From positions 15,826,648 through 15,890,647 of the forward strand of contig CM073329.1 in assembly GCA_037043015.1 (NCBI GenBank): DNA of 64,000 nt. Direction: 5' to 3'. A model generated the notes under the pieces. That model searched no databases. It was not told where the DNA came from and saw nothing but the letters and a program-made list of their open reading frames with translations. The stretch is from Bryum argenteum (lineage: Eukaryota; Streptophyta; Bryopsida; Bryales; Bryaceae). Numbering within the stretch: position 1 is the first letter of the stretch; each line of letters starts with the position of its first letter. Below are positions 28,059 through 56,063 of the stretch, piece after piece. The position numbers were made by a program, and so were the translations under genes.

Positions 28059-28093
28059 ATATAACACAATATTGAGGAAAACCGCTCATGGCC
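28059..28093. repeat. Left ATAT flank and inverted repeat of the 17.3-kb element
   Basis: ATAT (28059-28062), then the 31-base inverted repeat starting AACACAATATTGAGG and ending CTCATGGCC. An inner CCGCACTTG (28102) also occurs just inside the right end. Confidence 0.88.
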
Positions 28094-28402
28094 TTTGAAA
28101 ACCGCACTTGCTCCCTCGCTCATGACTTTAGGTGTTTTAGAGATTCCAAAAAACAAATCTGCAAAAATTGCACTTTTTACCAATGCAACCCGGAATAAAT
28201 GTCAAAATTCCAACATTAGGTACATCTCATGGTTTTATACATGTTTAGATTAAGAAGATATGATAAAATAGTATGTATTATATATTTTCATATATATGCT
28301 TTGAATACACAATAGAATTTCAATATCTAATAAGACTAGGGAAAAAATTAACCTATATATATATATATATTCTAATGCTAACGCTTCTATACCTATTTGC
28401 AA

Positions 28403-31400
28403 CTACTCTAAGTCATCTTCTTCTGTTGCATCTCCACTGTTGTCCACTTGCTCGTCATTAGTTGTATGAGATTGATTTGCCATGTGCTCCAAGAGATGAA
28501 AAGTCATTGCTTTTGGAATAGATATCTCTTTCTCCACACTAGTTTTTTCAACCATACAAGTCTCGAATTTTGAAGATGGTGCCCATGAGGTAATTGCTGT
28601 ATCTAAGTCCACCCAATTTGACGGCTCATAAGAAGGAATCCATTTTCGTTTTAGGCATTTTTCATATCTATGAGTCCACATGCCCGGATCATCTTGCAGA
28701 ATTGTTGGTTTTGGCCAATACCATATTACCTTCATGCTTCCTGATCTTGCAGAAACATTTCTTGTAGCCTTGACTTTTCCTAGAAAAAAAGGTATGTCTA
28801 ACCTCATATCATCGATACTGCTATTCATAGCAACAAAATGTCCAACTTTAACATCGTTAAATGGATCAAATTCTGGATAAGGGCCCAATGTAGATTCCTC
28901 CAAAGATGTAACATGTGCCGTATAAGGAGTTCCTTGCTTCCTTGTGGATTTGTAACTTTTCTTTCGTGGTTTGTCACGTCTCGGCCCAAAATATCCTCTC
29001 TCTTGTACTTCTGGAAGATGATTCAAGATTGTTGGTGCGTCCAAAGTGCCTTCGCCTACTTGAAGTCCTCCAGGTCCATCCATATTCTCCTCCCTCTCAA
29101 CATGGTTTTGCGACTCCATACGTTCAGGCCAAAAGTTCGATTGTTCCCACACTTCTGAGTTGCTCTTCTTGGGAAATTCATCGAGATATTGTAACAACCA
29201 CTTTGTATTGTGAATGGCTTCTAGATTACGCTCAACATGCATGAACTTCAAGATGCATCGTTCTTTCCATTTGATAAATTCCTCCAAAGCTCTCATTTCT
29301 TGTTCAGTTGCTTATTCCACTTTGGCGAACTCCGGTTTTGAACCTCCTCCCGGCACTTCATTTAGGCATTGATAGCCGTTTGCAGGCTCCCAAGATGAAT
29401 CTCGAGCATAGTCCTTGCTCTGAACAAATGGTTTATTGTTTTTCAAATAAAACCTAAAGTGATGGGGTTTGGAAATCCCCGTAAATGCGTCCGGACCTGT
29501 ATACATGTATGGAGTGATGAATTTCTTCCAATCCCAGATGTATTCCAAGTGACGAGAACTTTTGAACGACTCCGTCAGAGATGTGCCTCCTTTCACCAAG
29601 TCTAACAGTTGTTGCATTGAATCGATGTCTTGGCGCTTTAGTACTCCAGATATAACACTAAATCTTTGATCTATGTCCTCATGCGTGTGCCTAACAAGAA
29701 GAAAAGCTAAATGTATCTCTGCAAAATAGCCCAAACCCACAAGTGCAGCACACATACCAAACATGTATTGGTTCTTGTTTTTCCGCCACGCTTGTTATGC
29801 TTGGATGCGTAAGGTTGGAGGAAGAATGCCACCACGTCGAGCTTTCACATCGGCAATACCATACATTATCGATGTAATCACCTGATTGCTATCATGCTTA
29901 TGATGGGAGTCAATCCAAACATCAGAATACAATCCTTCTCCATGTACGAGTACACCACACAAATGTGTCTTCACATAGCGTCCTTCCATTCCCTTCACTG
30001 ATTGCCGTAGCTTTGGTACCATTGTAGTATTTTGGTCCATCCCATCAACGATCAAGCAAAGAGATTGGTTTGGAAACAATTTCGCATTATCTTTAGCCTC
30101 CCAGTAATCCTTCCTCTCTTCAATCTGTAATGCTTGATGTAGTAGCAAATTTTCCTCAATCAAACGCTTTTGTGTTGGATTTGTGGTACTTGACTCCAAG
30201 CATGTTCGATATTCCCAACAAATCTGGCATTTGGAAAATCGAGAGTTTGGTGGTATCTGTACGTAAGTATACTCTTCGCGCCACATACGATAAAATGAAC
30301 ACTCCCCAGGTGATTTTTCAAGTGTCAATTTCTCCACGTTTGTTGACACTGCTAGAAAAACATCCTTTCGTGTAGTATTTACGGGCAGTAGTACGAGTGG
30401 CACCATTTCATTATCACTCCTTCTCCGACATTGTCTATGAGGTTGAGTGCATCCGGCTTCTCTTACAAATCTCTCAAACATTGTCCTCATTGATTGTACC
30501 CCGGGTGATGTACGTGATACATGGACAGTATTTCCGTGTACTGCCGATATTCTGCCATTGCATTGGATATCATGTACTTCTGAAACAATCCCCCTGCTTT
30601 TGATGTCCGATTTCAGTTCTTCAATCCGCCTTCTTGAATATCCAAGCGCGATTGCATAGCAACCATTGCATATGTCTTGCCCACAAAGTTTTGTCTCAAA
30701 CTTATTCGTTTCAGCGTTGTAAACATCTGTAAGGCTCTCAAGAATCCAAGATGCCCTCTCCTCATACTTCTCTGATCCCCATACTTTGAATCGCTTCATC
30801 AACACAACACTTGCTTCCAACTTCTCCAAGCATCTTTTTGAGCAATTTCTTGATCGCAAGTCAATATGCACATTTCTGAGTGTTACTTTCTCAGACCGTG
30901 CTATCCCAATTTTTCTTGGTCTTCCTTCTTGCGTTCGACGTTGAACCATCACATACTTTCGCTTCTGAGAGCTTTGTGGCAATCCATCAATTCCAGATAC
31001 ACTGCGTATGTGGTGTATCATTGACGGACTTTGTTCATGTGGTGAATCGTTGCATCCTCTGTCGTGGTCCTCACTTCTGAAATTTGAATTCTGATCTACA
31101 TTGTTGCTCGATCCATAGGGCCCTTCTTCAGAAAAATCAAAACGGCGGGATACATCATTTAAACTCGAACTATTACCATTGTAATATTCAATCGCTTTGA
31201 TTGAATCCTTCGACCATCGAACAATCTGCCCAATGCAATCTACCATGGATTCGCCATCTTCATTTATATCCGCAAGTCTTGTTGCATGAACTTCTAAAAT
31301 ACGGACAGCGCATTGATGTGGAAACAAAATAAGACCTCCAACACTGTCGCCTACTTGAAATTTTGTCTCTAGAATTCCTCTTCCTATGACTGTTCCATTT

Positions 31401-31699
31401 CTATCTTTTAGATGCACACCAACCCGTTCCTTACTCTTACAAAATCTCTCTGCCAAATTCAAAGGAGAACTATTGCGTCGATTATGGCCTGATGTAGATG
31501 CTAAAATTCGTCTCCCCAATGATAATTGTCTGTGACTTCCGTGACTTTGCTCTCGGGTTGGTGTAACGTTATTGATGGACGAAGGAACATTCTCCTTATT
31601 GCTCATATATTCTCCCCGATCCATATCCAACCTACACTTTGACACCATGAATAAAATTTTATTAAATACATTGCTCAATACATTCACATATTTTGGCAA
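28403..31699 (-). CDS. DUF7869-family (RNase-H-like, transposase-like) protein with two in-frame stops
   Basis: One frame is open for about 1,098 codons except for TAA at 29795-29797 and 29312-29314. The start could be 31699 or the downstream ATG at 31624 (MDRGEYMSNKEN). The N-terminal barrel-like segment (VHLKDRNGTVIGRGILETKF, VGDSVGGL, CIGQIVRW) resembles TNP1/En-Spm-type domains. The core has KCQICWEYR, CLIVDGMDQ (first acidic residue), HLCGVLVHGEG and PPTLRIQA. The usual DN after QA is replaced at the first stop. THEDIDQRFSVISGVLKR is a hallmark of DUF7869 proteins. A C-terminal SH3-like segment (VKVGHFVAMN, PFFLGKVKATR, KVIWYWPKP) follows. The probable role is as the element's transposase. 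The stops, one at a probable catalytic site, suggest a recently dead copy. Confidence 0.75.
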
Positions 31700-32834
31700 T
31701 CCCTACTGTGTACAAATAGATTTGTATTTTTGGGACTAAGAGTTTGTAAAAACATTTATTTTTTGAACTAAGAGTTTATAAAAACATTTATATACACACG
31801 ATCCTAGTCGGGTTTGTTTGTAAACAACCCAAAAATATTGGGCCAATCCATTCAAAGACACATTAATTACATGTTTTTCCATTAGTTAATCTTTGAAGAT
31901 ACTCTTATGTTGACACTAAGTTAATTAAGGTTAAGTTGGGAGAGTTCTTGACTATTGAGCTTAGTAATTAAACCGATAATTTAATTGTAACTTAAAGTAC
32001 TTAAATAGATTATACTAAAAGGATCTTAAATATTTTTATTTTTCATTTTAAAAATAGATGGTAGAAACCTTTTATACGTATTACGTTTCCTAACATTCCA
32101 TATAGACTAATATGAAAATCTAATTCGAAGAGCAAATTAATATGAAATTGTGTGAACTTCAAGTGTACTTGGAATAGATTTACGTCAAAAGAAAATTAAC
32201 CGTTTATTCAGAAACACCTATTATATATGTGGTTTTAAGCTTGTATAGTTTTTTGTTGACTAAACAAATGTGTTGTACAACACATGCGCTACCTCCAAAT
32301 ACTTCACGCCATGAACTTTGATATTACTCCCTACAAATACAAAATGCTACAAATACAAAATGCAGTGAATCAACAAAGCACCTTAAGATATATGTACAAC
32401 CTTTATAGTAGAGCACATATTTTATAAAACTTAGAAGCATACAATTTAATTACGATTCTCAAAGCTCATGTTGTTTTAAATATTAATTTTTGATTTTCTA
32501 ATTTTAGGAAAAAAATCATCAAATATGGTCATTAATGACATTAAAATATTTTATGCTAGTTTCGTCATTTATCTCTAATATTTTTCAATGAAGAATACAC
32601 TTACGAAGGAGATCCTTCAATACATCCGATATAACATTTTCAATTATGTTTACAAATGGCGCTTGCAGCATTTAACCTCTAAACGTCCCATGGGAATAGT
32701 AGATACAAGGAGGTATAAATGATAATTCATTGAACAAAAAACTCAAAATTGACATTAAGTATGAATAATTGCACATTAATAAACATTGAACTAAAGCACT
32801 GTATGCATGGCCAAAATTTTAGATTTTCCAAGAC
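31700..32834. other. AT-rich DNA inside the 17.3-kb element
   Basis: Upstream of the DUF7869 gene and probably containing its promoter, but no specific site can be defended. Confidence 0.5.
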
Positions 32835-32837
32835 TTA

Positions 32838-33201
32838 GGGGCACTTCACACTATGGCCGTCCAAGTCGAGAGGCCGTGGAATTGAGAGTCCAAACTTTGT
32901 TGAGAGTCCAAAGGTATTTATTGAAAATAACCAATAAAATATTGTAATTGAATTTTTTATTATTAAAATCTGACGGACTCTCGACCATAGTTTGGGTCTT
33001 GCAAAATGCAGGACCCAAACAAATGTCGAGAGACCGTCGCCTTGGTCAAAAAGTGCTGCCACATAGGCCATTTGGAGAGTGACGGATGGTGGACTTTGGG
33101 TTCTAGTGTGAAGGCTCGAGAGGCCGAAATTAGGGTTTCCTGCAATTTCATTGGCTGAAATCGACGGCCTCTCGACCTTCAGCCATAGTGTGAAGTGCCC
33201 C
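32838..33201. mobile_element. Tourist-like MITE, 364 bp, TTA target duplication
   Basis: Perfect 20-bp inverted ends (GGGGCACTTCACACTATGGC) are flanked by TTA at 32835-32837 and 33202-33204. A 3-bp TTA duplication and G-rich ends fit the PIF/Harbinger superfamily. CTCTCGAC and its complement are scattered inside. It has no coding capacity and depends on a transposase supplied elsewhere. Confidence 0.88.
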
Positions 33202-33204
33202 TTA

Positions 33205-35881
33205 AGTACTATTAAGAAGAATCCTAACTACCTAACTCGTAGGTTTGAAATTTTTTGATTTTAAATACTATATAAAATCATATGGAGAAGTATTAAATGT
33301 AAATATTTATGTAAAATTTATAAACTTGATCTCACAAGTACATACTCAAAAAAGTAGCAAACTCAAAAGTTTCACCTTGCATTGGATAATTGCAATTTCA
33401 AAAGCATTTGGTAGTTTTGAGGCCTTTCATATGTCAAACAATTGGCGGGCATGGAGTACAAAAGATATTAAATAGCAACTTCAAAGTTATATTACACCTC
33501 TTCATAAACTCTATTGAAAAATAACTTGTGCTTTCTAATTAGGGTGAGATTTTGAAAGCAAATTTTATTTTCAAAACTCTCAAAAGGGATGGCATTTTCA
33601 AAAACTGAATAATCTTATGGGGTTCGCGGTCCCAATGATCAAACATTCAAAGGTAGGTAAGACAAACTTTCCTCAAGTAGAGGTTTGAAGCTTTATGTGG
33701 AGTTTTTTAATTTGCATATTTTCATCTACACCGTCACCCGAAGCAATCAATATTCATCTACAATAAACAATATTCATCCACGTGCATGAGTCGTTTCTCT
33801 GAAAGCAAATCCAAACTTACCAGCTGCTTGCCTTTGGTTCCAACTCTAGCTGTTGTTTTTCTTTGCTCTAACCATCTTTTTGAGAATCTTGTCGTCAACG
33901 TTGCATTATTGATCCCGTAACCACCATTTTCATGCTGCCAAAAAACATAAATTAACTTCCAATTTTGTCACTGCCTCTCTGTGGTCTCTCTTCCTTCTCC
34001 TTCTCTACAAGTATAATCAGATCACAATCACAATCAATTTCACTTCCCCCTTTCGAGAGTGGACAAACAAACCACACTAGTTTCTAGCTAGTTAGTGCCT
34101 TGAAGATACTTGACATAGTATCTCCAAAGCGCCATCATAAGATCACTCTTATGGAAAACAAGTCCATGAAAAATTCATAGTAATCAAAATGACATAACAT
34201 GCCCCATGTTTCAAAATTCTAAAACAAATATCACTTGCACTAAAATGCATGCCACAAAATGACCTAGTTTTAAATCTGGCACAATAACAAGAGGGACATG
34301 GTCAAAGTATTCAAGTGGTCATGGCAATGCCGCGAGGGCGTACTGGTTATAGATTACATATTATACTGGCTCTAAAAATATTGCCATAAAAATTTCCTCT
34401 ATACTTTACACACACTGTAAAAATTTGGGGGAAAAATCAAATTCAAGTGTTACAAGTAGGTGTCCAAAAGCTGCAAAAACCTCATTTGTATTTTACAAAA
34501 CTCTATGAATTTATGTAGATAACTAGATACTCTTTGTAGCTACATAACTCTAACTAGTTTTCAATAACAACCCTCTGAAGTCACAAGTTATTTCTCACGT
34601 TTTCAATTCATTATTTCACAAGTGTTAGATACTCTTCTAGTGCCCCAACAGTCACATATTATTTACTATATTCCCGTAGCTCTTATAACAAGCTACTTTT
34701 GGTGAGGCATAACACAATGGTAAACTTCCACCATCTCAAAAGAAAGCTTTTTTGATACACTATCTACATATGCAATTGCTTTTTAGAAAGAACTTGAATT
34801 GTACACCCAAAGAAGCTGGAGATTGGACCTCCGTACTCTAAGTAGATGTCAAGATAAACAAGAGCAACTTCAAATGATCATATCCAAAACCTAGAATATC
34901 CAAATTCCATCAAACTACCACCAAAGTCTTCAAATCAGTAACAAATATTATCAAAACTATCTCTTTCATGCTAATCCAAGCTCCATGTGTTAAAAAAATC
35001 CATAAGCAATCATTGCACTTCAAAATATGTATGTAACTTTTTCAATAAGAGACAACATCAAGGTTTCTTACATCAACTCAACTCAATATTTGTAACTGCG
35101 AGCCACATATATGTAAAGGGCATCAAAAGAGGTTTCTAAAGAGATATTAGTACTCTCTTCCTTAACAAACCTCACCATGTAATGGTCTTCATAACAACTA
35201 AAGGTAGTTTTTAGAAAGTAAGTTACAAGATACTAAAGTTGTCAAATGAATAATTTACACTTTTTTGGAAGTTTTTCATGTATTGGTAAAGTTAATGCAG
35301 TACCTTCTTTCATACTTCATGATTTGCAATTTGAATAGATTTTACAAAAATGGTGATCATATGAAAGTTGAAGGTATGTTATCTCTTCTTGCTCTGAACA
35401 TAAACTTGTTGGTGGGTACTGTACAGTACATGTACCCCTCATGGCGTTCCAGTGTGCAGTCAGTACTCAACACACCAAGAGCTCTTGTGGCTTTACAATC
35501 AATATACAGTACACATGCACACAAGTTGTGAGAAGCTACCGAAGTAGAGTCCTGACCTTCAAATCTGTTCAGGTGTACTTCCTACCAGTTTTATTTGTAA
35601 GATGCAAACTATAAAATTGCAGGTTCACGAAAAGCAGCTGCAATGAGTCTCTGGTGCTCTGGATATGCTCATATAAGCTCTAACTTTCCAGCCCCACAAT
35701 ATAATACTATATGTTGAAGTCACAATGAGCATGTCCTGACAGCAGCTCATGGCGGCTGTGCTTGGGGGCATTGAGCAGTCCACCACGCCATCCCATGTGG
35801 GGTTCCTTTGAACTATCAATTTGGCAATTTCACTTTTTCAATAAGAATAGCGTGCATGCATATTTCCCTTGAGAATAGAAG
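33205..35881. other. AT-rich DNA inside the 17.3-kb element
   Basis: Apart from a SINE remnant (~34050-34135) no gene or element is recognised. A short palindrome, GTACTGTACAGTAC, lies at ~35417. Confidence 0.5.
34050..34135 (-). mobile_element. Decayed SINE fragment
   Basis: The reverse complement contains GATACTATGTCAAGTATCTT then CAAGGCA, AGAAACTAG and GTCCACTCTCG, matching the centre of the SINE at 19085-19452 (19246-19325). No ends are left. Confidence 0.75.
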
Positions 35882-36040
35882 CTGATTCCCAGGAACACGG
35901 TGATCTCGACAAAAAAGTCGCAGGTGTTCACGACTTACCAGGAGGAGCAGACGATGGTGTCGATCCAGGTGTTCGAGGGAGAGTGGAGTCTACGAAGGAC
36001 TGCCACGAGCTTCGGAAGTTCTACGGCTGAGCGACGTTGG
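35882..36040 (+). pseudogene. BiP/HSP70 fragment captured in the transposon
   Basis: Translation reads [20 protein letters not shown], then [12 protein letters not shown], and after a frame change [10 protein letters not shown]. This is the substrate-binding-domain start of ER HSP70 (BiP), which normally has [17 protein letters not shown] and [15 protein letters not shown] (family knowledge). P to S and R to W changes and the shift show it is non-functional. Only ~50 codons are present, with no intron. Confidence 0.88.
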
Positions 36041-36101
36041 AGAATTCAGCCCGGGTTGCACATCCATCCGGATGGGGAGCGATCCCTAATCACCTCGACG
36101 T

Positions 36102-36470
36102 GTCAAGTCCCTACGACGGATATGTCTAAATAAAGACGGGGCTCAGTCTTTTCCTCGTCTCCCTTGTCCTCGCCCCAGAGGTCTGCGCGCGGGGACCTCC
36201 ATTCTCCTTTTTCCTGCCTCGAGGGGGGGGTCTGCGGCCGGAGAGCTCCTTTCTCCCTGCTCCTACCTCTCTCTGTTCGAGGGTCAAGTCCCTGCGACCT
36301 TAACGGTAACGGATATGTCTAAAGACGGGGCTCAGTCTTTTCCTCGTCTCCCTCGTCCTCGCCCTAGAGGTCTGCGGGCGGGGACCTCTAATCTCCTTTT
36401 TCCTGCTTCGAGGGGAAGTCTGCGGCCGGAGAGCTCCTTTCTCCCTGCTCCTGCCTCTCTCTGTTCGAGG
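36102..36470. repeat. Tandem duplication, ~180-190 bp, two copies
   Basis: The block from GTCAAGTCCCT through GACGGGGCTCAGTCTTTTCC and CTGCGGCCGGAGAGCTCC to CTCTCTCTGTTCGAGG occurs twice (from 36102 and 36283) with ~93% identity by eye. GC-rich; it may be a 5' untranslated leader of a captured gene. Confidence 0.9.
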
Positions 36471-36535
36471 GAAGGAATCTGCATAGAAAGAAGGAGCGCT
36501 GAAGAAGACTTCTGCTTTTAGGGTAGTCTGGCGCG

Positions 36536-36591
36536 ATGGACGCCGCTTCAACCGCTTCTGCTTCCGACGGCGGCGCGATGGACGCCAACAG
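36536..36591 (+). pseudogene. Probable captured first coding exon, gene unidentified
   Basis: ATG at 36536 gives MDAASTASASDGGAMDANR up to a CAACAG/GTATGC donor. The Ala/Ser-rich start after a CT-rich leader looks like a plant first exon. No clear following exon could be recognised, so it is most likely a fragment. Confidence 0.4.
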
Positions 36592-37625
36592 GTATGCGCC
36601 TTTGTAGATTCAGATTTTGTAAGCAAAGAAAGGTCTTGGAGCAGAAGAGGCGAAGGCGTTGCAAGGAGACTCCCTTTCGCGTCCTCCAGGCCTTTGTACA
36701 AGCTCGATCACAACATGCTGCAGCTGAAAGTTTACATTCGAGTGAGCAGGTGCGCCTCCTGGCCCAGCCAGCGCTCGCAGTGACTGTCCGTGGGATCGGC
36801 TCCCGTTCGACGAAGAAAGCCCAGACTAAGGTCCAGTATGGCCAGGCCAGGTACCGCCCTGCTCTCCTGTCCCTAGCTCTATCTCACTCTAAATGCTTTG
36901 CAAGCTTTCCGACCCAAGCGGCACCTGCGTTACCAGCTCCCTGCGTTACGTTGCTCAGAATAGTCATGTCCTCGTGACACGCCTCGTGCTTGTACAAGAA
37001 CGGCTCCCATTGCTGCAAAAAACGGATTGCAACACATATGAATCGAAGGCAGTGACGGCGGAGCAGGAGCAACATCACCATCCTCTGTTACCTCCGGTGT
37101 TTTCAAATTGCTGAAATCAGTTTCGCTCGGCGGTGCTTTCGGTTTCCTGGAATCGATGTCGAGTACGTTTCCAGCATTCCGAAATGCCTCATTAAGATAA
37201 CTCAAAGCATCGGAATCAGCAGCATCTTCAGCAGGACCACTCTCCCTTGTTGCACTGTCAACTGCATCCTGCACATCAGCCGGTTTCATACATTTCTTCA
37301 GTTCAATCTGTCATTGAGATCTTGACAATGTTGTCATTACAACATGAACAGTCGTTGAAAACGATACAATTGATTGGAAATGTGTCAGTTGAGCCCCTCC
37401 CAGACAAAAGATCTCTTTACAGGTAAAAGTTGAGCTTTGACTGATGTTCCATGAACATTCACAACAAGATTGAACGATTAGGGTGATGGGCTAGAATTGA
37501 GAACACGGAATCCTAATTCGATGTGATTCAAAAATGACAATCTCCAAAGATAACAGTTCGATTAGGTTTTTAGCAGTTTTAGGGTTTGGAGTCTTATGGA
37601 GTGAGGTTGTATTTTTGCTGTTTAG
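36592..37625. other. Coding-like scraps on both strands, unidentified
   Basis: The minus strand has an open acidic segment (37289 to ~36990) containing DALSYLNEAFRNAGNVLDID and KPKAPPSETDFSNLKTPEV, preceded by an acceptor-like CAATGACAG and continued in another frame by EPFLYKHEACHEDMTILSN. The plus strand at 37325-37421 could be an exon ending LPDKRSLYR at a GTAAAA donor. I recognise neither. They look like further gene fragments in the cargo block. Confidence 0.35.
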
Positions 37626-38427
37626 CACCTTCAAGAAGATGGCTTTATGTGAAGGAGATCAGGAAGGTTGCGCAAAAGAAAGCATTTGAGGTGGGTGCTT
37701 TCTTATTATATTAGAGGTGAGAGCAGAGGGAGTCATTAGTCACTTTCATTTCAAGCATTGACTGTAATGGGCACTTGTTAACAGTCGTGTAATATGCTCA
37801 GGAGTTGGTGAAAAACGATGGATTCTATACTGTTCGTATGCCTGCGAACTTGATCCAGCCCGGGAAGAAGCATGTCTTGGCGTCAGTTAAGGCAGTAAGT
37901 GAACAACAACCTCATTAGTCCAAGTTTTCAATGGACTCTCTTTTTCTGTTTAACGATAACACCTTCATTGCATGTGTTGGACTGAGAACTCTTGTGCTGC
38001 ACTGGCTGGGGTTTCTTACTTATTTTAGTATTCTTGTATCATTGCAGCGGTGTTTAGCTGCTGCCAATTTGAAGGAGCGTTTTGACCTATTCATGGTAAG
38101 TTTGTTCGTTCGTCGGTCTACTGCATCTTCGAGGAACGGTTGTTCCTCTTTGTACAATCCTCTGTATGAGAAGTGTGGGATTATGCATGATTAATATACA
38201 GAGTGTTTCTTTACATGATCAAGGCAATCTGATTGGCGTTGGCTACTCTCCAATTGGCGACTGCACTTACCCTCGTCCTCAAGTCAAAGTAAGTGAATAT
38301 CTGGCGACCCCATACATCAAATGATGTGATTTTCGAATAGAGGTCTAACATGTTTGTGGGCCTGACAGCCAGCAGAGTGGACATTTGATTCGTTGATTGT
38401 TGCAAAGGCCAACGAGCAAGCTCCGAG
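37626..38427 (+). pseudogene. EMC10 (ER membrane complex subunit 10) fragment with introns
   Basis: Five exons join in frame with GT-AG borders: 37626-37690 (ending RKVAQKKAFE), 37802-37894 (ELVKNDGFYTVRMPANLIQP, then HVLASVKA), 38048-38095 (RCLAAANLKERFDLFM), 38202-38288 (GNLIGVGYSPIGDCTYPRPQ) and 38369-38427 (PAEWTFDSLIVAKANEQAPR). The series matches the luminal domain of EMC10, which helps insert membrane proteins at the ER. The signal peptide and the C-terminal membrane anchor are missing. Introns are kept, so the piece was taken from genomic DNA. Frames are intact, so capture is recent or the fragment is under constraint. No symbol is given because it is partial. Confidence 0.72.
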
Positions 38428-38499
38428 GTACACGAGGTACACTGCAAGCAGAAGTGAGTTGAGCGATAAAATATGATGCAATGGCAGTTAAAGAAGGTG

Positions 38500-39240
38500 A
38501 ACTTGGAGACAGGCGCGGTGACTATTCTAGACTCCCCGACGTACGATGTGCCGAATGGGTTGGTACTGGACAAGCAAGGTCGTCTGCTCGTATGTCAGCA
38601 AGGGAACAAAACACAAGGCGGTTTCATTCAGCCGCATCGACCTTAAGACATCGAAACGATCCGTCGTCGCGGACAATCGGTTCGGGGTTCCCTTCAATAC
38701 CCCAATGATGCAAAGTCAAAAGCGGCGGCTCCTCCATCTGGTTCATCGACACGAGCTATGGCCGTGCTCGGGGCTTCGAACCGCGCCCAAGGTGAATAAT
38801 CGGTGTCTGAGAATCGGCGCCGCCGGCGTTGTCGACGCCATGGCCGACGGCTTCACGCAGCCCAACGGGCTAGCATTCTCCCACGACGAGAAGCGCTCTA
38901 CGTCACCGACACGGGATTTGCGCTTGGGTACGTCCCACGATCTCATCTCACCAACTCACCGTGCACATCTCGATTGAGAATCGTGAATGTCCATTCTTTA
39001 CCCTAACCAGTCTTTGGGGGCGAAAATGGGACGATTCGACATATAAAGACCGCACTCAATCACGGTGTGGAGCGGAGGAGTCCGGAACGTTCCCACGAGA
39101 TCCGAGCACGCACATCGCGAAGCGTAACGATGATGAGGATGCGACGAACGAGTTCTACTCGTATGTATCCGTTCTTCGAGGTGCCCTCTTTGAAGGGTTT
39201 AGGAATTTGGGAACCAAGGTTGTAGAGGTGGAGGATTAGG
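38500..39240 (+). pseudogene. SMP-30/gluconolactonase-like fragment, frame-disrupted
   Basis: From 38500 the frame reads NLETGAVTILDSPTYDVPNG then LVLDKQGRLLVCQQGNKTQG. After a shift it reads SRIDLKTSKRSVVADNRFGV and PFNTP, then VNNRCLRIGAAGVVDAMADG and FTQPNGLAFSHDEK. PNGL...GRLLVCQQGN and ADGFTQPNGLAFS are typical of the beta-propeller SMP-30/gluconolactonase/LRE-like superfamily. At least three frame changes occur before 38940. The sequence to ~39240 (VFGGENGTIRHIK) may be a last exon. It is a broken copy adjoining the EMC10 piece on the same strand. Confidence 0.65.
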
Positions 39241-40959
39241 TCCACGTTCCTCCCCGCTTTTCTTTTGAGCTTCGATTATGAGAAGCTTATGTTTCCCGAT
39301 TAAAACCAGTAAAAGAGGTTACCGATTCGTTGAATCGTTGGTCAACTTACGCTTGATTGTCTCTTGTGAGGAATAAAATCTTTGTGATCAGTCGGCTAAC
39401 CATTGAGCTACTTGTGTGTGTGCATTTTTTTGTTGTGAACGAAATGAAGACCTTTCTTTGCTTGCTCTCCATGTCATGAGCTTACCTCGTTGGCCAATCC
39501 TGTCGAGTTTCCTCTTATCGATTCGGTGTTGGATCGGAAGTTTCCTTGTGGTGGACCACGAAACTCGCAAGTCGCATTTAAAGCATATCGATTTTGAGAT
39601 AACTCAATGTTGAGTTTTATTTAGTCGATCGCTTCATCAGTCGGCCAACCATCGATTGTGCATATTCGAATGTTATCACCACTTCTTTTGTGTTCAGGAT
39701 CGTGAATGTTTACTTTCCATGTCATGAGTTTACCTCGTTGCTCAATTATGTCACGAGTTTCCGCAAATCAGGTGTTCTTGGAGTTGGAGTTGGAGGCGGG
39801 ATGAACAAGCAGCTACCTGTATCTACTAGCATCCAAAATTGACAAGTGCCATATCCAAGAAGACTCGAAGATAGGAAACGTGTTTGTGCCTGGAGCATCT
39901 AATAGTAGACTCTTAGTAGCAGTGATGAATCACGTCACATGTAGTTTTATACCTATTTTTGTAATTTGTTTAGGTAAAAATACCCTTTACTGGGACTAAA
40001 TTACAAGAAATCTTTTTGTGAAACTTTACTTTTTCTATTATTATTTTATATTGTTATACTTTTATTCTTGTTTGAGACTATATAATATTTTGTAGATGAG
40101 TTTAAGATTCTTTTTGATTATCACGTGGTTTTGAAGGTGAGAGCCTTAATGATTTGTTCATTTTGAATGATTTGCAATTATGTTTTTTTGAAATTGGTGA
40201 ATTCATTAAGACAAACATGGTTTGTGAAAATTTACATGTTTTGTGATTAAATTCCATGTTGAAAGAAATGCTTTGAGTGTTAAATTGTTTTTAAGTGAGT
40301 AATAAACATTTTATTATTCGTTTAATATTATATCATATTTATGGTATAATTGATAATTTTTATTTCTTAGATTTTATTTGAGTAGGTTAATTCTGACCAT
40401 GGAAAAATCTCATTACAAACTCTTGAGACGAATTTATTATATAAATATTGTATTATTACAGAAAACTTAAGGTTTTGCGAAAGTTCTTTAATTGCTGTCT
40501 TATAAATTTTAATAGGGATGTAGAGTATTAAATAATAATCAAAATATTATTTATTTATTAAATCAATCGTAATAATTTCAATTTAATATATATTTGCTAG
40601 CAAGTTTAGTGGAGTTTGGGTTTGTTTTAGATTGTTTATCTTTTCAGTTTCCTATATAATTTACTTTATTTGGCTATAACACATAATTCGTTATAATGGA
40701 ATATTCAGATTATCAAATTGATGACAATTGAGCTTGAGTTGAGCCAAATGTACTGCGTGGGTACATTTAGCTCGACTCGAGCTAAACCTACATTTCTCAA
40801 AATCAATGAATAATACCATTATAAGAATTATGTGTTCTATGATGTATATAAGTATTTTATGAATTTTTTTAAATTTTTGCATTATTTATGTTAAACTGAT
40901 ATGATTTACGTTCTGTTGAAAAATTCACCTTTTTATTTGATTACACTCAGGGTACAATC
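39241..40959. other. AT-rich DNA upstream of the methyltransferase-like gene
   Basis: No gene. A possible 3' splice site (ACACTCAG, ending 40950) just before the ATG at 40960 suggests an upstream untranslated exon. A ~40-bp near duplicate (CCATGTCATGAG.TTACCTCGTTG) lies at 39470 and 39718. Confidence 0.45.
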
Positions 40960-43900
40960 ATGGACGCGGGAGGATCATCTCTCACAACCATATTTTATGA
41001 CTACGGCTATTGGATGAAATACAAAAGTCCTACAGAGGTGGAGCTTTGGATAATTGAGGACTATCTCGGCAACAATGGTATGATCACGGGCATTGGTCAA
41101 AGTACTGGGACCATTGACAAGGTCATAATCATGGCGGAGAAGCTTCAACATTTTTTCATCCATACCAAAAGGGATGGGAAAATATTCAAATATAAGCTGA
41201 AGAAAAAGAATTTATTATCGCCGATAGAAGATTTGGTGCTTCGGATGCAACCTATGATTAACGGGATGAGGACAATCGCGAAGTGGTGGTCAAAGTTACC
41301 TTCGGATGTAGCCGATAGCCGCAAGGCGGTTGTGGCAGCTGCAACAACCATGATGGCAACTGATAAGGAAAATTACGCTGCTGCATTGAGGCATATCAAG
41401 TATAAGCGAAAACAGAAGGAGAGGAACAAGGGCGTTGCTTCATCGTCGCAAGTTGTTAGAGACATGACAGCTCCAAGACCACCGCCTGAAGATCCATTGA
41501 CAAGAGCATTTGCAAAGTGTTTTGCGTTAGAGCCACATCATCCGTCGTTTGGACCTGCCCAACCAAGAAGAACAAGTTCTTATATACCAGGTATGTTTAG
41601 GTGTTATTAATTGATCAATGAAATTTGCTTTAAGGATTTTTTTACAATTATATCTCAGAGAAAGAAAATGAAGGATCTTAATTTGAATACTTCTATATAG
41701 AATAAATTTCAAAGGTGACTAAATAATTAGGATTAAGTGCATTTTATAAGTGTTATCAAAATATTTTTTAGATAGATTATAAAATAATTCATTAAGATAT
41801 TAATTTGAAGGTGAAACAAATTTTAATGTTATTATATGTGAAAATCAGGTTTGTTGGCAGAACATGGAAGAGGTCGCCCAGAAGATGATCTTGAGTGTGA
41901 CGTATACCCGGGAGTAATCCAAGAACATGACATACATGAGAATGATTTTCAATTGGACACGGAAGGAGAGGTACAAGAAGAAATGGAGGAAAGGGAGAAT
42001 ACAAAATACAAAATCGAAGGACCGACTCCCGTCGATGAACTAGAGGCAGGATTTACTTTTGGGCGAGACCAAGAATTTGAGGTGAACATGAGAAATGTGC
42101 TTCCACCTTCATCGACACTTACCAATATGCGAATATTGGACATGGAGCATGCCAAAGTAATTTATGAGCGTTTGTTGAATAAACAAAACGTGTCATCTTT
42201 GACGTTGAAGCCCGTTTCGTATTTTAACGTACAACTTCAAGAACAAGTTGACTTTAAGTTAGAAGGAGCTCGACAACAATTCCAGGAGGTTTGCAATGAT
42301 TGGAGCGTTGGAGCATCTAAAGATGATGCATGGAGAAATATGTTGCAAACAATCATGTGGGAACCATGTGACGGTCAACACATATTGCACGCATGCAAAG
42401 TCTTGGCGGAAGAGGCATTTCAGAAAGGCGAGATTACAGAAGAGAATTTGAATAATCTCTTTCGGATCAGAAAAGCGGTTGTAGTGGTGTATGACAATCC
42501 TAAGATGTACCTTGAGATGTCAAAGCGACAAAACGACTTTAACATTCCAAACCGAAAGGATGGTCATGCGAGTGCCTGGCAGAGTTTGATAAAACTTCGT
42601 GCGTTATGGGATTATTATGGAAGACCTAAAGCCCGGGAAGTCAAAGATATCACTTGTCGTGGTGATATATTGATGTGCATGGCGACAGTTTTGGGTCTGA
42701 AATTGGAGGGTGAAAAAAATCTCACAGTCACCAAGCTATCAACAAAGTTGTACGATTGGATCTCACACGCGTGCAGAGATGATGATGAAGCTTTTGATTT
42801 GATTATACAAATTGGAAAGGAGGTGGACAACCGTTTATTACATTTGGATCCCGCAAGAGCAAAAGCTTGGAGAAAATATATACGAGCTGGACAGGAGAAT
42901 GCTAAGATCAAAGAACCAAAGCCTGCCTCCATGACAATCAATTGGTTGAGGCCACTAAGGGCATTACTGGATGACGATTACAAACAACTTGTACGAACAG
43001 CATTGTATGATGAGGTGAGACAGACTCAGAAGTTATACTTCAACGACGTTGAGAAGCCATTTCCGGAGTCTAAGACACTAGAGTTTGTATCGCTTCGATT
43101 ACGACAGCGATACGCAGTGAAGAATGCTTTGCGGTGGTTAGAGGTGGAAGGTCATGCTGGAAGTTACAAAACCATGAAAGATTTTTTGCAGATCGATGTT
43201 TTGAGGTTTGGAGAGCATGACACATTAGTTGCACTTGGGCAATTGGGCACCAGAAGCTTTATCAATCATTGGGCTTCGCCACTATATGTTTTTGTTTCTG
43301 CACTGAAGAAGTATGCCGAAGAGATACCTGGAGCCATAAGAGCTCATCATCGCGATATTGTGAATGGCGGTAAAGGTTTTGTGGGAAAGGTTAAATTTAT
43401 CGGGAAAGACACCTACAGTTTGAAGGGGTGGTTGTGGGAGACAAAGCTGAAGAAGCGGATTCAAGGATCAGAAGAACAACGTGAATTGCATATTATGCAT
43501 CGAGGTGGTCTATTTACGAGTGGAGGTGGCCAACTGGTGGAACCAACATTATGGGTGGTGGACTGTCGATGGGGAAGTACAGCTGGAGAGGACAAACCAT
43601 GGATTGAAAAAGATTACAAGGAAGCAATTCAATTACTGGAGAAGTGGATGAACGGTTGTCCCAAATGGAATGTGGTGTTTCTTTGTCCTGAGAATGCAAA
43701 CATGCGGTTTTTGATGGATGATTTGCAAGAATCGCATCGAATCATTCGTTATAGGACATGGGTATTTACACCGGAGACAACTATAAGGAAGGACAACTTA
43801 TTATTTGGCGGGCAAGAAGTTGTATCTCTTGAGGCGATAGGAGATGTGATCATTGTGATGGTGTGTCCTAAAGATTCTAACCCTATCAACAATGTATCTC

Positions 43901-45009
43901 GTACGGGAATGCCTCTCAACCGAGCTTTTTATGATCGTGAGTCAAAGTATGCACCAGTAAAAGGAGATGCAAAGAGAAGAACACCGGAGGAATTAACCAA
44001 GTTGATCAATTGTTATTTGCCAAAAGATTGGACACTAGCATTAGTGGGACTCACCTCAACTATCCCAGCAGTCGTTGACGAGGGTTTCAAAGGATCTCAA
44101 ATCTTAAGCTTTGATGATAACATTGAAAGGAGCATGAGGTTGTCTGAGTGGGTTCGACAACATGATGGGGTTGTACTTGATTTTGCATCACAAAAATCTG
44201 CTGGCAATGAATTGGAAAGTGATATCGCACAAGGAGAAGAAACCCATGAAGCAGATACGAACACCGAAATGGAGGACGAGTCAGATGAAGATGATATGGA
44301 TGATGAAGAGGACGAGGATGAAGACAATGACAATGATGATGATTTAGAGATGGACAACATTGGTGACGATGATGGTACTACACCATTTTTGGGATCAGAA
44401 GTTGTAGCTCCAGAAGAGACAGGAATGAAAAGACAGAGGATGGATCCGGTACTTACGAATGTATCAGGATTGGAAAGCTTTGCGATTCAGGATTCTCAAC
44501 CATTACGACGTTCCAATAGATCAAAGAAACCAACAGAGAAAGTTATGGGGGGAGGTAAGGAACAAACAATAGCAACTGGCACAATTCTGAAGAAAAGACG
44601 TTCGAGTACTTCGAGGAGACCATCAACAACAATTACGTTTTCATCAGGTGAACCCACAGCTGCAACGATGAGCGGGATTCTAAGCAGCTCACTTGATCAT
44701 AGTGTTGCAAGTACACAAACAACGACCACTGAAGTCGTGTTTAAGGTTGGTGATTGTGTGAAATTACTGGATATTTACGATGACGTTACAGTGGCGATTG
44801 CAAGAATCATATCGCTTCCAGGGTCCGCACACTTGCATAACAGGATGCAACCAGAGGGCTTTTACAAAGTGGCTGTAGAGAAGGTTATTGTTGGAGAAGC
44901 ACTTCTGATGGTACCGAACAAAGATGATGATCCAGAGCAATTGATTGTTCGAGATGTTGAGGGTACGATGACTGCATGGCAACATGATCGTATCGCACAT
45001 ATTGGATAG
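40960..45009 (+). CDS. Large protein with degenerate DNA-methyltransferase-like domain, 1,263 residues
   Basis: Exon 40960-41590 (GTATGT donor) joins exon 41849-45009 (AAATCAG acceptor) in frame, making 1,263 codons with no stop. The N-terminal half is mostly helical and unfamiliar. A Rossmann-like region at ~775-970 has VDCRWGS (~782), where amino-methyltransferases have D/N-PP-Y/W, and DWTLALVGLTST (~937), where they have the G-x-G SAM loop. Spacing and order fit such enzymes but both key motifs are altered, so it probably binds rather than methylates (inference). Then come an acidic stretch (~1018-1046), basic patches (KKRRSSTSRR) and a C-terminal TNP1/En-Spm-like barrel (VKLLDIYDDVTVAIARI, GFYKVAVEKV). 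It lies near the right end of the 17.3-kb transposon, paired with the DUF7869 gene, and probably helps transposition or evades silencing. Confidence 0.7.
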
Positions 45010-45319
45010 ATTTAGTTGATTAGCACAAGTTTTTACGGGCGTGTTTATCGAATGGTTTTGATGATTTTTACTACATGAATATTATATTTCATATGTTTTC
45101 AATTACTTTTTTAATATACTTATTTTCACATCGTATATATTTATTTGAGTATGGTTGAATGGAATTATTGTTTATAATAAATCGTTTATAAAATAGCATG
45201 TATACAAATAAGTAGATTTTTTAAAGGCAATGCATTCCTTCAAACTAAATTTCATTATACCAATATTTTTTTACATTATCATTATATTTGAATTGTTATA
45301 TCAAGCACAAACCGCACTT
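45010..45319. other. 3' flank of the methyltransferase-like gene
   Basis: AT-rich. It contains TTTATAATAAATCG-type polyadenylation-like words near 45170 and ends at the transposon's right inverted repeat. Confidence 0.4.
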
Positions 45320-45354
45320 GGCCATGAGCGGTTTTCCTCAATACTGTGTTATAT
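45320..45354. repeat. Right inverted repeat and ATAT flank of the 17.3-kb element
   Basis: Starts GGCCATGAGCGG and ends CAATACTGTGTT at 45350, followed by ATAT. Confidence 0.88.
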
Positions 45355-47375: not shown

Positions 47376-47579
47376 TTATGTAAAATTTCTGCCGTTCTGC
47401 TTTTCGTTCATGAAACACATTAAATATTTAATCCATTTATAAATTATCAATAAAAGTTGATAAAGTTGAAAGATTTGATTTTTGATTTTTGATTTTGAAA
47501 TCCACATGTTGAGTGAAATATAAGACCAAACCAATGAACAAAGAAGTTTAAAAACCAATAAAAGTATCAAAAATGAAAA

Positions 47580-47926
47580 TTTGAGAGGAGGACGGCTGGA
47601 TGAATGATAAACGCAAAACACAACGATTTTCGTCGGATCGTCGTCCTCCTCAGTGGAGAGAGAGTCCAGTGCAGCTTGCTGTAGTCCCTGAGTTGCAGAA
47701 TCTTCAATGATAAAACCTCCATAGCTCTTCGAAGCCCTAGAGGCAGGACAGAACTCGGGTCCTTTCGGTATAAAAGCGCACCAGGTGTGCTGATGTTTTC
47801 GAACAGGTGACGATGGCGAGCTCTGGTGGCTCGCCGGAGCAGCAGCAGCGCGTGCTGCCGAATGCGTCATCTGCGACTCCTCCCCTCGCTCCGGCGGATG
47901 GTAAGTTCTGATCGCCCCTTCGATTC
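47580..47926 (+). promoter_or_regulatory. Duplicate promoter and first exon of the exonuclease/KH gene
   Basis: It contains TATAAAAG (47769-47776), ATG at 47813 and an open exon (MASSGGSPEQQQRVLPNASS then ATPPLAPAD) to GTAAGT at 47901, exactly like 53597-53684. About 240 bp (47686-47926) are identical to the downstream copy, whereas the adjoining intron differs at about 10% and the upstream repeat at ~15%. Exon phase is the same, so a transcript starting here could splice to 54038 and encode the same protein. Confidence 0.8.
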
Positions 47927-48023
47927 TTTCCTTATTGCAACTTCGATTGTCATCAAACCTTAAATTTCCGATTCTAGTCACAGTTTCCCAATCCGTCAAT
48001 CTTGTTTTTGTTCAAAATAGTTG

Positions 48024-51300: not shown

Positions 51301-53363
51301 ACCCGAGCACCGCCATCTCTCTTGGATATTAACTACTAAGTATATGACTACCGGCCATCAACAAACCAAACTGAGCCTAAAAGAATTTTTGGGGAATACT
51401 TGTATTATATGTTTACATGATTTTAATTCTATATGATCTATGAAGACTATAGAAATACTTGATTTTTACATGGATGTATGCCATAATTCAACTACAAAGG
51501 CCCATCTTTGACGATAAAAAAGGCATATGATGAATAATTGGATTGAAAACTTCAAAGGTGAGAACATGCTTTAAAACCAATACACAAAAAAATACACAAA
51601 AACTCAAAATTTGAAAAAAAATAAATTCTCAACTTTCGGCGGATTCCTGAAATTTCTTTCATTGATTGACTTTAGGGAGATTTTGAGGATGAATGAGCAT
51701 ATACCACATTGTGAGCAATTCTCGTTAGATTTCAAAGTGTTTTAAATCTTTCACCTGTCTCCAATCTTTCACCTGTCTCCTAAAGTACGAGGAAGTTTGA
51801 AGCGTGAAATGATTCTTTGGAAAGATACCAAAAAGCTTTACAAGCTCAAAAGGTCTCAACTTCATGCATTTTATATTTGACAAATAAAAGGATGACCGAA
51901 GCCGGATCGACCTTGATTGGGAATCTATCTCCATTAGGGGTTAATGAATGAGTACTCAATGTTTATGATTGATATTGTAAATGATAGATTGTGGATTTTT
52001 TAGCCAGTGGCCACGCGAATTCATAATTAGTCCCACGCTTAAGGTATTTTGAGGTCCTCATCATTGTGCACTTTTGTTGCCACGGAGGACAAAAGTGTTG
52101 TCCATGTTCTTTTCACTCCTCTCCTTTGGTCCGGCTCCTAAATTCCTAAGCCTCCCATAGGCTTAATTCGTTTTCTTTGGCTTCTCACACCTAATGTGAA
52201 GTGATCCTTGAATGTGTACCATAGTCATTGGAATGTTTATGAAAATATACAATGGCTATGAGATTGGCCATCTGCAAAAGCTAAAATTTGAATAATAATG
52301 TGAACAAAGCTCACAATGCTTAGATTGATAATATTTGAAAAACATGACTTGTATTTGGTAGTAGAGGCCTACAATAGGCAACTATGGCCATGCACGGTTG
52401 TGGTGGTCAATTTTGGTGCATGTGGTATTGCGTGGATAGAACAAAGTAAACCTAATTTAATTAGTAGGGCCAATAAAGCATTTCTCATATCAATGATTCA
52501 AAATTTGATGAAGCCATAGGAATAGGTTAATAATTATTGGTCTTTGATTCATCACATATTTTAGGGAGTTCTTTATTGATGACCTTGGACTTTGAGATGT
52601 ATCAGCCTATCAGGATAAAGTCCTACTAATTTACTTGTCTAGTAATTTGAAAATATAATTTGTAATATATAGGCATGGGTAGAGCAATATCCTACATTGA
52701 TATAATTAGTCGAGGGTAGTGGGCCATTAACCAACTAGTGATATAACTTAGCAACTAGTCATTACGTAAGTTTGAGTTGATCATCATATAAGATAAAAAT
52801 GTATGTCTTTGGGTAGGCCTGTTATTATTATATAATTTTTGAAAGTTTTCTAGTTCTAGATGGAAGCTTCAACATCCTATCGTGTTGACCACATTTTTGA
52901 GATTTGGCAGTTGAGCCTCTCAAAGTTTCAGATTGTACTCGATATTCCTCTTGCATATGAGCTCTTGAAATTTAGGGCTTGAGGTTCTGAAAACTTTATG
53001 GTTGATAAGCCTCTCGAAGCTTTGCGAAAGAGCCTTATGAAACTTCGTGAGAGGCTTCAATTACAAAGAGGTTGCGTAATTGAGCCTCATTTGAGACTCA
53101 CGAAGCTTCTCGAGAGGCTTCGAGATTGAGCCTCTGGAAGCTTCTTCACGGTTGAACGGACCGTGCTCCGTGCTCAACACGCGTTCATGAACTTTTTTTA
53201 AGTTCTACTTTTCGTTCATGAAACATGAACATTTTCCTATTTATAATTAAGATAAAATTTGATAAAGTTAAAAGTTTTGATAATTAATTCATGTTAAGTG
53301 AAATATAAGACCAAAACAATGAACAAAGAACTTCAAAAACCAATAAAGTATCAAAAATATTAA
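48361..53363. repeat. Segmental copy B (uninterrupted)
   Basis: Same order of blocks as copy A (23771-28058 plus 45351-47580) without the solo LTR or the 17.3-kb element. It therefore provides empty sites for both. No intact gene seen; predicted short frames are chance. It continues into the true first exon of the exonuclease/KH gene. Confidence 0.85.
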
Positions 53364-53552
53364 TTTGAGAGGAGGACGGCTGGATGAATGATAAACGCAA
53401 AACACAACGAGTTTCGTCGGATCGTCGTCCTCCTCAGTCGAGAGAGAGTCCAGTGCAGCTTGCAGTAGTCCCTGAGTTGCAGAATCTTCAATGATAAAAC
53501 CTCCATAGCTCTTCGAAGCCCTAGAGGCAGGACAGAACTCGGGTCCTTTCGG

Positions 53553-53560
53553 TATAAAAG
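53553..53560 (+). promoter_or_regulatory. TATA box of the exonuclease/KH gene
   Basis: TATAAAAG 37 bases before the ATG at 53597. This would make a very short leader, so the real start may use other elements. Confidence 0.5.
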
Positions 53561-53596
53561 CGCACCAGGTGTGCTGATGTTTTCGAACAGGTGACG

Positions 53597-56063
53597 ATGG
53601 CGAGCTCTGGTGGCTCGCCGGAGCAGCAGCAGCGCGTGCTGCCGAATGCGTCATCTGCGACTCCTCCCCTCGCTCCGGCGGATGGTAAGTTCTGATCGCC
53701 CCTTCGATTCTTCCCTTTTTGCAACCTCGATTGTCATCAAAGCTTAAAATTCCGATTCTAGTCACAGTTTCGCAATTCGACAATCCTGTTTTTGTCCGCA
53801 ATAGTTGTCCGATTCGTCAAGTTCTTGTTAGGCCGAACAGCTGGAAAAAGCACACGCAGCCTTTTCTTTCTATAAGAACGGGTGATTGCTCAATTCGGGA
53901 CAATGTTGTGGATTTAGTGAGAGAGAGAACAGGAGTGTGTTAGAGAGAACAGGTGGAGGGTTAATCATCAGGTGGAGGGTTTAATTGCTTCGAGGCTGTC
54001 AATTGTGAGTAAGCTTAGACGATTGTGGAGGTTTCAGGGGGCAGGAGTGGCAATCGCCCTCGCCAAATGGAGCGGGGGATGTCGCCGATTCCAGTGACTG
54101 TCGTGACACACCATTCGCAGCTTCCTCGGGAATTTGTGAATCCCAGTTACACGCACCCGCTTGTAATTGGTTTCGATTGCGAAGGGGTTGAACTTGCTCG
54201 CTATGGCCGTCTCTGCGTCATGCAGGTAAGTACCCCTCGAATTTCGAAGATCCTGTTTGTGTGTGATCATCTTTGGGCTCTTCCTTTTCAGGAGCCGCAG
54301 GAATCGATTATACTAATGACTTTTGTATTAATGCATTGTGAATGACTCTATTTCTACATTTGTTTGTGTGGCAGTTGGCATTCGAACATGCCGTATACCT
54401 TGTAGACGCTGTGGTAGGAGGACCCGAGCTGATGAAAGCGTGCAGAGCGGGGTTGGAGTCACCTTTCATTATGAAAATCTGTCATGACTGCAAACGCGAC
54501 AGTGAGGTAGGTGCCTTTCATCGTAGTTTTATTGTCGTTTCATTTTTGGTTAAGTTTGCTCTGGCATGTTGAGCCTCTGGCTTGACTTGATGTGTTTGTC
54601 TATCAAGGTTTTGTGGTGATTTGTAGAAATTGCGAAGAAGTACCGAATAGCTGTTTACTCTTTCTCGAGTCTCTGCATCTTCTCATTAAGCTTCAGAAGC
54701 ATGGGACCTTTTTATCAACTGTGGAGGCTTTACTAGTGTCTCTTCTGCTTGTGTGATTTGGAATGGTTTGTCCCAGAGTTACGAATGCTAATAAGCTTCT
54801 TTCGGGTGCACTGCAGGCCCTGTATTTCCAGTATAATATCAGGCTAAACAACGTGTTCGACACTCAGGTAATTGCTAAGATGAAATTAGAACTCATTGTA
54901 TTCTTGCTGCAAAAGTGGTTCGTATTTAACATATCCTCGTGGGTATGCCAGATCGCTCACACGTTGCTGGAGGAACAACGTGGGAAAGCGTTGAAGCACG
55001 ATTATCACATCTCCTTCGTGAACCTCTTGGCAGATGGACGATATTGTGGTACAATTTTGTTTCTGTTTCTATGTTTTTTTCTGTACTAACCGTTTTCTTC
55101 TGCTGGTACTGACGGTTGTCTAATTGTTTTCCAGGTATCAATTACGATGAAAAAGAGGAGGTCCGAGAGCTTATGAAGGCGGATAAGAACTTCTGGATGA
55201 CTCGACCCTGGGATGATATGATGAAACGGGTAGCAGCCGACGATGTCCGCTTTCTCCTTCACATTTATGGACGAATGTGGGGATTGTTGACGGAGCTCTC
55301 CAAGTGGCGTCTCAGTGTTCGCAGCGCTCTCTACTGTCGGTGTTTCTGCTCGGTGGATCCGAACTTCCGCCCTTGGCCGACTCCATCATTTACAGGTGAT
55401 GCATTGTGTGTTATTTATCTCTTATTTCGATATAAATATTTCGGATGAAGTGTTAAGCTGATACTTTGCCCATTGTTCGATACCAGGTGTAGGGATACAC
55501 CACCCAGAGATTGAAATACTTGGTGTGGTCGATGTTCCTCAAGGACAAATGGGTCGCGTCATCGGCGCAAGGGGTGATTCCATCCGAAAAATAAAGGAAA
55601 AATTCAGGTAATATTCTCGATACTCCCACCTGAAACAGTTTGCTTCTACATTATTACCTTCACATTGACTGAAAAGGTGTGATTTATATCATCCAGGGGG
55701 GAGATTTTCATCGAGAAACACAGAGGTCCTCCAGATAAGGCAAGTGTTTTACCGAAAGATTAGAGTTTCCTTTGTATCAACTTCTGGATTCATGTAAAGA
55801 AGTGTCTGAAACTAAACTGGGATGTGTCAGTGCAGATATTCCTGATTGGGACCCCCCACGAAGTGGCCAACGCAAGGAGACTTCTCGACGAAATATTGGG
55901 TCGCATTGTGGATACAGTAATGTACAATCCAGGCTTCCAAGTCCCAGTGGCCCCAATGCCGACAGTATTGTTAGGGCCGAAACCGCCGAGCAGGGGTATC
56001 AAGATCATAGACCCCAAGACAGGCAATGAAATTTTACCGCCGAACAGGGGCAACACGAGCTGA
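53597..56063 (+). CDS. 3'-5' exonuclease domain plus KH domain protein
   Basis: Nine exons: 53597-53684, 54038-54225, 54375-54506, 54817-54867, 54952-55048, 55135-55395, 55487-55607, 55697-55739 and 55836-56063. They join to 1,209 nt, 402 residues, without a stop. Eight splice pairs are found; one donor is GC (AAG/GCAAGT at 55740). Residues ~60-250 form a DEDD-type exonuclease fold: VIGFDCEGVEL (D76, E78), KICHDCKRDSE, VFDTQ (D151) and AADDVRFLLHIY (D222). The Tyr/His normally four residues before the last Asp is Val218, so nuclease activity is uncertain. Residues ~284-355 form a KH RNA-binding domain with GARG (299-302). The architecture matches plant exonuclease/KH proteins such as Arabidopsis AT2G25910. 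It probably acts in RNA processing or decay. It converges on the pectinesterase gene. Confidence 0.92.

Follow-up and report, generated by a model that had tools for sequence, protein, structure and literature searches.

An unusual two-gene DNA transposon of the moss Bryum argenteum with genes for a DUF7869 protein and a conserved orphan protein and with mosaic cargo

The stretch of the Bryum argenteum genome analysed here (the window; 64,000 nucleotides, GenBank assembly GCA_037043015.1, contig CM073329.1, positions 15,826,648 to 15,890,647) contains, at window positions 28063-45350, a DNA transposon of 17,288 bp that carries two divergent genes near its ends, namely, a gene for a protein with the domain of unknown function DUF7869 and a gene for a large protein that we denote protein 2. 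The left terminal inverted repeat (AACACAATATTGAGG..., 28063-28093, plus strand) is on the DUF7869 side and the right one (AACACAGTATTGAGG..., 45320-45350, minus strand) on the protein 2 side; the two are inverted copies of each other over 31 bp with one mismatch, and each is abutted by one copy of the 4-bp target-site duplication ATAT (28059-28062 and 45351-45354). When this tetranucleotide is included, the arms (28059-28093 and 45320-45354, 35 nt each) are 97% complementary. An uninterrupted paralogue of the insertion site is preserved outside the element, at 51478-51560 of the plus strand; aligned with the two flanks fused over a single ATAT, this empty site shows mismatches and runs without a gap through the insertion point. 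Both the inverted ends flanked by ATAT and the preserved empty site had been proposed in a first-pass annotation of the window, made from the letters alone, and the alignments bear these proposals out. On either side of 51 kb, there are near-identical reading frames (47379-48011 and 53292-53816), and, from these twin frames and the empty-site paralogue, the flanks of the element look like an old duplication.

The DUF7869 gene is located on the minus strand (28403-31702); in the window copy, two in-frame TAA stops break its reading frame. The Pfam model PF25273 (DUF7869) matches two pieces of this frame, with E-values of 5e-27 and 2.6e-07, and an intact copy, with an E-value of 6.2e-53. DUF7869 is a curated Pfam domain that occurs in many animals and a liverwort; in an alignment of 54 homologues (taken from 120 listed of 209 found), the animal and liverwort proteins are like the intact moss copy in the domain and the invariant residues, the more distant of the aligned sequences being only 21-26% identical to it. 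The predicted fold has an RNase H-like core, with which the conserved acidic residues agree, as the first-pass reading of an RNase H-like protein had anticipated, and DUF7869 is probably, judging from this model, an RNase H-like, DDD/E transposase core. In a Foldseek search with the domain model, no E-value reached significance; the absence of a named plant transposase among the matches listed in the structural alignment excludes nothing.

The gene for protein 2, on the plus strand, consists of two exons (40960-41590 and 41849-45009) separated by a 258-bp intron with GT..AG borders (41591-41848; splice sites predicted from the sequence). The joined exons form an open frame of exactly 1,263 codons, the length that had been given for the second protein at first pass, and this frame is intact in the window copy while the DUF7869 frame is broken. 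In protein 2, an acidic stretch with 27 D or E residues out of 60 precedes a basic one. Seven relatives, all of them unnamed, were found in a set of 5.8 billion proteins, of which the approximately 8,000 best word-sharing candidates were scored, and a repeat search with the protein 2 alignment contributed only two partial relatives. Comparison with Pfam, PHROGs and PDB sequences returned only sub-threshold, mutually inconsistent matches, and scans of viral contigs with the two element proteins, despite 34 and 49 pattern matches, revealed no relative. An AlphaFold model of protein 2 built from seven sequences (predicted local distance difference test, pLDDT, 36.8) was unusable for a fold search.

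The window element is one copy of a family, hereinafter family 1, that recurs in the genome; the counts that follow come from this one genome of 258.8 Mb and are lower bounds (positions outside the window are prefixed C2, C3 and so on). The exact family-1 end, AACACARTATTGAGG, is present at 47 sites genome-wide, compared with one site for the reversed control pattern. These sites represent 46 distinct flank-plus-end contexts, two sites on C6 having an identical flank and end, such that one may be a duplication copy of the other. The entire 31-bp end is conserved with at most two changes in 44 of the 46 contexts and with four changes in another, and the end at C2:3197504 stops matching after 20 bp; the flanks are dissimilar right up to AACACA. 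There are ten facing pairs of exact ends, six with perfect 4-bp duplications (ATAT in three cases, TTAT, ACTG and ATTA) and four without; the remaining 27 exact ends lack an exact partner facing them. The first-pass annotation had called the element a DNA transposon and had suggested recurrent ends and 4-bp duplications as the support to be sought; both are present, and uniqueness of the ends is excluded inside this genome.

Comparison of eight family-1 copies showed that most of the left arm and the DUF7869 gene are common to seven of them, and the right arm, which spans about 4.5 kb and contains the second gene, to six; the 7-kb and 1.8-kb forms of the family are deletion derivatives. In the copy on C2 (11.86 Mb), both main frames are open (1,099 and 1,055 codons), as is the DUF7869 frame in the copy on C9 (10.80 Mb; 1,099 codons). 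The ends of a locus on C4 (6.04 Mb) were not found in the sequence examined, which reached 1 kb past its DUF7869 gene. Past mobility of short non-autonomous copies is suggested by a 1.8-kb deletion derivative (C10:523786-525589) in which the two ends remain and the ATTA duplication is perfect. A miniature element of 125 bp (C2:3197504-3197628) is bounded by family-1 ends that face each other, one of which matches over just 20 bp; its flanks, CATA and TATA, differ in one of the four bases.

The same arrangement of genes is found in a divergent second family, which, like the cargo described below, had not been mentioned at first pass. A genome search with the intact DUF7869 protein, in which the best 42 of 1,764 candidates were scored, yielded 40 merged loci, with groups at 74-100% and 42-49% identity, and two further small pieces that are 51% and 27% identical to the query. 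The family-2 element at C5:21304871-21317821 has a perfect 28-bp inverted repeat beginning AACACGCAATTAAGC, an open DUF7869 frame of 1,125 codons and an open frame of 1,402 codons for a relative of protein 2 (29% identity over 796 aligned residues), and is flanked by TAAA and AAAA, an imperfect duplication. With one mismatch at most, the AACACGCAATTAAGC end occurs at 361 sites, compared with three for the control. Perfect 4-bp duplications (ATTT, TCTT, TTTA, ATGA, TATA, ACTT, GTTA, TGAG, CTTA and TATA) were present in all ten sampled pairs of family-2 ends, 11.5-11.9 kb apart, a non-random sample selected among the first 100 of the 361 sites by the exactness of the ends and by this spacing. 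One sampled copy that was examined whole contains decayed versions of both genes in the unchanged arrangement. Between the two families, the identity is about 43% for DUF7869 and about 31% for protein 2, and a terminal AACAC and a subterminal GCACTT/AAGTGC motif are common to both in the four copies inspected.

Association of the two genes extends over the genome. When 47 DUF7869 matches were merged into 40 loci and 51 protein 2 matches into 34, a DUF7869 locus was present within 25 kb of 20 of the 34 protein 2 loci, whereas in 2,000 draws of randomly placed loci the number of such pairs averaged 0.27 and never exceeded three. All 20 pairs are divergent, with the 3' ends facing the termini. 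The two divergent genes near the ends that had been noticed in the window occur together also in copies with different flanks and in the second family, and the possibility that they never occur together elsewhere is excluded inside this genome. The other 14 protein 2 loci are without a DUF7869 neighbour within 25 kb, partly because only the best 42 of the 1,764 DUF7869 candidates were scored: the DUF7869 remnants in the wholly examined family-2 copy were absent among the matches listed by that search, and a family-2 end lies 1.2-1.3 kb downstream of two of the partnerless loci (C5, 0.57 Mb, and C6, 4.52 Mb). We propose that protein 2 has been inherited together with DUF7869 since before the split of the two families. 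At the sequence level, both genes look to be under purifying selection, with ratios of nonsynonymous to synonymous substitution rates (dN/dS) of 0.23-0.37 where measurable, these being descriptive values obtained from open frames only. For DUF7869, the ratio is below 1 in the one measurable pair of six, the other five being saturated; for protein 2, the range is 0.23-0.37 over 11 measurable pairs of 21 (the other ten saturated), which suggests that this protein is important to the element.

The central region between the genes (34660-39760) is mostly occupied by other sequence in the copies on C2, C4, C8 (5.745 Mb) and C9, and only its first 1.96 kb, approximately, is common to the copy on C7. 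The exception is short repeats rich in guanine plus cytosine (GC) that are related between the centres of copies, represented in the window by units of about 95 bp (36131-36471, plus strand). The GC content is 35-47% in the centres of six copies and 36-39% in their arms. When the window centre was searched against the genome (best 40 of 245 candidates scored), it proved to be a mosaic that includes fragments matching C3:12513502-12514009 (37052-37559, 98% identity), C5:7435397-7436159 (37676-38438, 99%), C5:21235530-21236146 (38454-39068, 93%) and C6:14821007-14821707 (39065-39760, 92%). Two additional pieces (36637-36688 and 37560-37679) also match C6 at 14.82 Mb, with the order kept, and the three pieces that match this place are 86-98% identical to it. 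In their own place on C6, these pieces are 48 and 264 bp apart, whereas in the window the C3 and C5 fragments intervene, so the latter fragments were probably inserted later. The third fragment is a piece of a host gene: its place on C5 (21.24 Mb) has an uninterrupted frame of 266 codons with an SGL (SMP-30/gluconolactonase) domain (E 1.9e-26), which is disrupted inside the cargo, where a sub-threshold SGL match remains (E 0.02). The frames examined at the C3 place and at the 7.44-Mb place on C5 had no Pfam match. Among the other copies, a piece in that on C7 has a leucine-rich-repeat match just below the cut-off, and one in that on C2 matches AhpC/TSA. The cargo is of the Pack type, with matches of 86-99% identity to four unlinked places, one of them an SGL-type host frame, and transfer would have proceeded from the host places to the element. 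The centre also begins with part of a dispersed repeat (34660-35425), which may start before 34660, the query start. At least 33 further places of about 765 bp, 85-96% identical, match this repeat, and at least 19 short matches to its 3' end, on the opposite strand and about 0.1-0.2 kb beyond the copies, suggest that it is a longer element with inverted ends.

Elsewhere in the window, a gene piece at 3611-5311 matches DUF659 (PF04937, E 2.8e-36) and was interpreted as hAT-like; the GC skew of the 2-kb segment 8001-10000 is extreme (-0.71), and this segment has proline-rich plus-strand frames with a repeat spacing of about 740 bp; and a pectin methylesterase gene with an inhibitor domain (PF04043, PF01095), indicative of a land-plant host, is located at 56301-58110.

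Inverted repeats of 31 bp with one mismatch and, in family 2, 28 bp without any, combined with 4-bp duplications of fixed length at varied sites in six of ten family-1 pairs and all ten sampled family-2 pairs, are the features of terminal-inverted-repeat DNA transposons as a class. We consider it quite likely that the element is a two-gene cut-and-paste transposon, with a DUF7869 transposase, that captures host DNA. Under this scenario, the predicted RNase H-fold, DDD/E transposase would recognise the 5'-AACAC ends and join them to staggered target DNA, yielding the 4-bp duplications; protein 2 would most likely not be a passenger but assist in transposition or control it, perhaps by binding the ends or chromatin; and host-gene pieces, along with other DNA, would be picked up between the two genes, generating lineage-specific cargo. 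Movement by copying, either replicative or via a rolling circle, would agree with the many copies present and with the frequent cargo capture in Helitrons, but inverted ends with variable 4-bp duplications fit DDD/E strand transfer, and no rolling-circle protein was detected by Pfam among the element frames scanned, so we regard this mode as very improbable. With respect to classification, Pfam includes transposase models for CACTA, hAT, MULE, piggyBac, Harbinger, mariner and P elements, none of which was matched; at E <= 5, the intact DUF7869 protein matches DUF7869 and one sub-threshold, unrelated model only. The targets of piggyBac, Kolobok and Tc1-mariner are TTAA or TA, and the duplications here vary (ACTG, TGAG, TCTT and others). 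Zisupton duplications are given as 8 bp in the consulted part of PMC12730594, and those observed here, of 4 bp, do not fit the Kyakuja-Dileera-Zisupton (KDZ) group. Assignment to Sola or another named superfamily with 4-bp duplications, such that only the partner gene and the cargo are unusual, appears doubtful but deserves more weight than copying. Sola2-type elements are described as having AT-rich 4-bp duplications (AWWT; ATAT, AAAT, ATTT), short inverted ends and, in some cases, an extra gene such as Fanzor1 (excerpts of PMC3627910), and the moss Physcomitrella is among the sources listed for Sola1 (excerpts of PMC9033089); the duplications here, 4 bp and mostly AT-rich, share that feature, although ACTG, ATGA, GTTA and TGAG do not conform to AWWT. 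A survey of titles and abstracts, with Repbase, Dfam and most subscription papers outside its scope, gave no description of the element and none with 'DUF7869'. The element type looks unnamed, with a known family a possibility.

The role of protein 2 is a separate matter, and we give about even odds to the view that it is a partner or regulator of transposition. The first-pass description of this protein as methyltransferase-like finds no support in Pfam, PHROG, PDB or profile comparisons, the first three of which yielded nothing credible for protein 2. By eye, a degenerate fusion of ParB-like and amino-methyltransferase domains, related to phage enzymes, is suggested by the conserved WEPxDGQHxVxAC, a DCRxG in the position of DPPY and a later PxELxRLxxAYLPxxW, and fusions of ParB_N with N6_N4_Mtase exist in phages and a halovirus. 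We compared protein 2 with seven such phage or halovirus fusions (476 phage records, 60 listed; eight taken and seven aligned, with H43, in which the gene is split, omitted), and the comparison failed: on the percent scale of hhalign and with thin profiles, the probability for the whole alignments was 0.06, against 0.12 for an unrelated control, and sub-regions scored 0.23 and 0.03 when matching and 0.18 and 0.09 when mismatched (effective number of sequences, Neff, about 2). This origin, which would also entail loss of the catalytic residues and those of the S-adenosylmethionine motif, is unlikely. It is less improbable, albeit well short of an even chance, that protein 2 shields the transposon as an anti-silencing factor, like VANC of VANDAL elements or, as proposed, TET/JBP of fungal transposons: it is conserved, element-borne and distinct from the transposase, and known transposons carry such genes, as described in parts of PMC5735166 and PMC12730594, but for protein 2 neither Pfam nor PHROGs yielded any credible match.

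Under the preferred interpretation, a domain of unknown function gains a candidate role, that of a transposase for which the ends and the target size are defined. The long-conserved protein 2 is unlike anything matched in the libraries searched, so an undescribed component may be involved either in the chemistry of transposition or in the avoidance of silencing. Recent activity, and another way of shuffling plant genes, is suggested by the copies that have open frames, perfect duplications and captured DNA. With somewhat less than even confidence, we suggest that DUF7869 could define an unnamed eukaryotic DDD/E superfamily with 5'-AACAC ends and 4-bp duplications, in which the plant branch would have an obligate partner of new fold, protein 2, and would capture host fragments.

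Pack-MULEs and Helitron-type elements capture genes and, likewise, contain host gene fragments along with unlinked DNA, whereas in the moss element the cargo is lodged between the two conserved genes of a DUF7869 transposon. MULE duplications are 9 bp long, in contrast to the 4 bp seen here, and the predicted transposase described here does not match any MULE model. In these respects, the element is unlike VANDAL, which it otherwise resembles as a plant DNA transposon with a conserved extra protein, VANC (PMC5735166, in part). An extra conserved gene is also found in the fungal TET/JBP transposons (Dileera, Kyakuja, IS3EU, PHISTA and others), which are DNA transposons, mostly of the DDD/E type; by the portion of PMC12730594 consulted, a recognisable dioxygenase is carried there across superfamilies, whereas the moss protein 2 is an orphan seen with one transposase. 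Finally, the Sola2 type (PMC3627910) is alike in its AT-rich 4-bp duplications, inverted ends and possible second gene; the moss element differs in its non-AWWT duplications and in that its second gene is conserved and occupies a fixed place.

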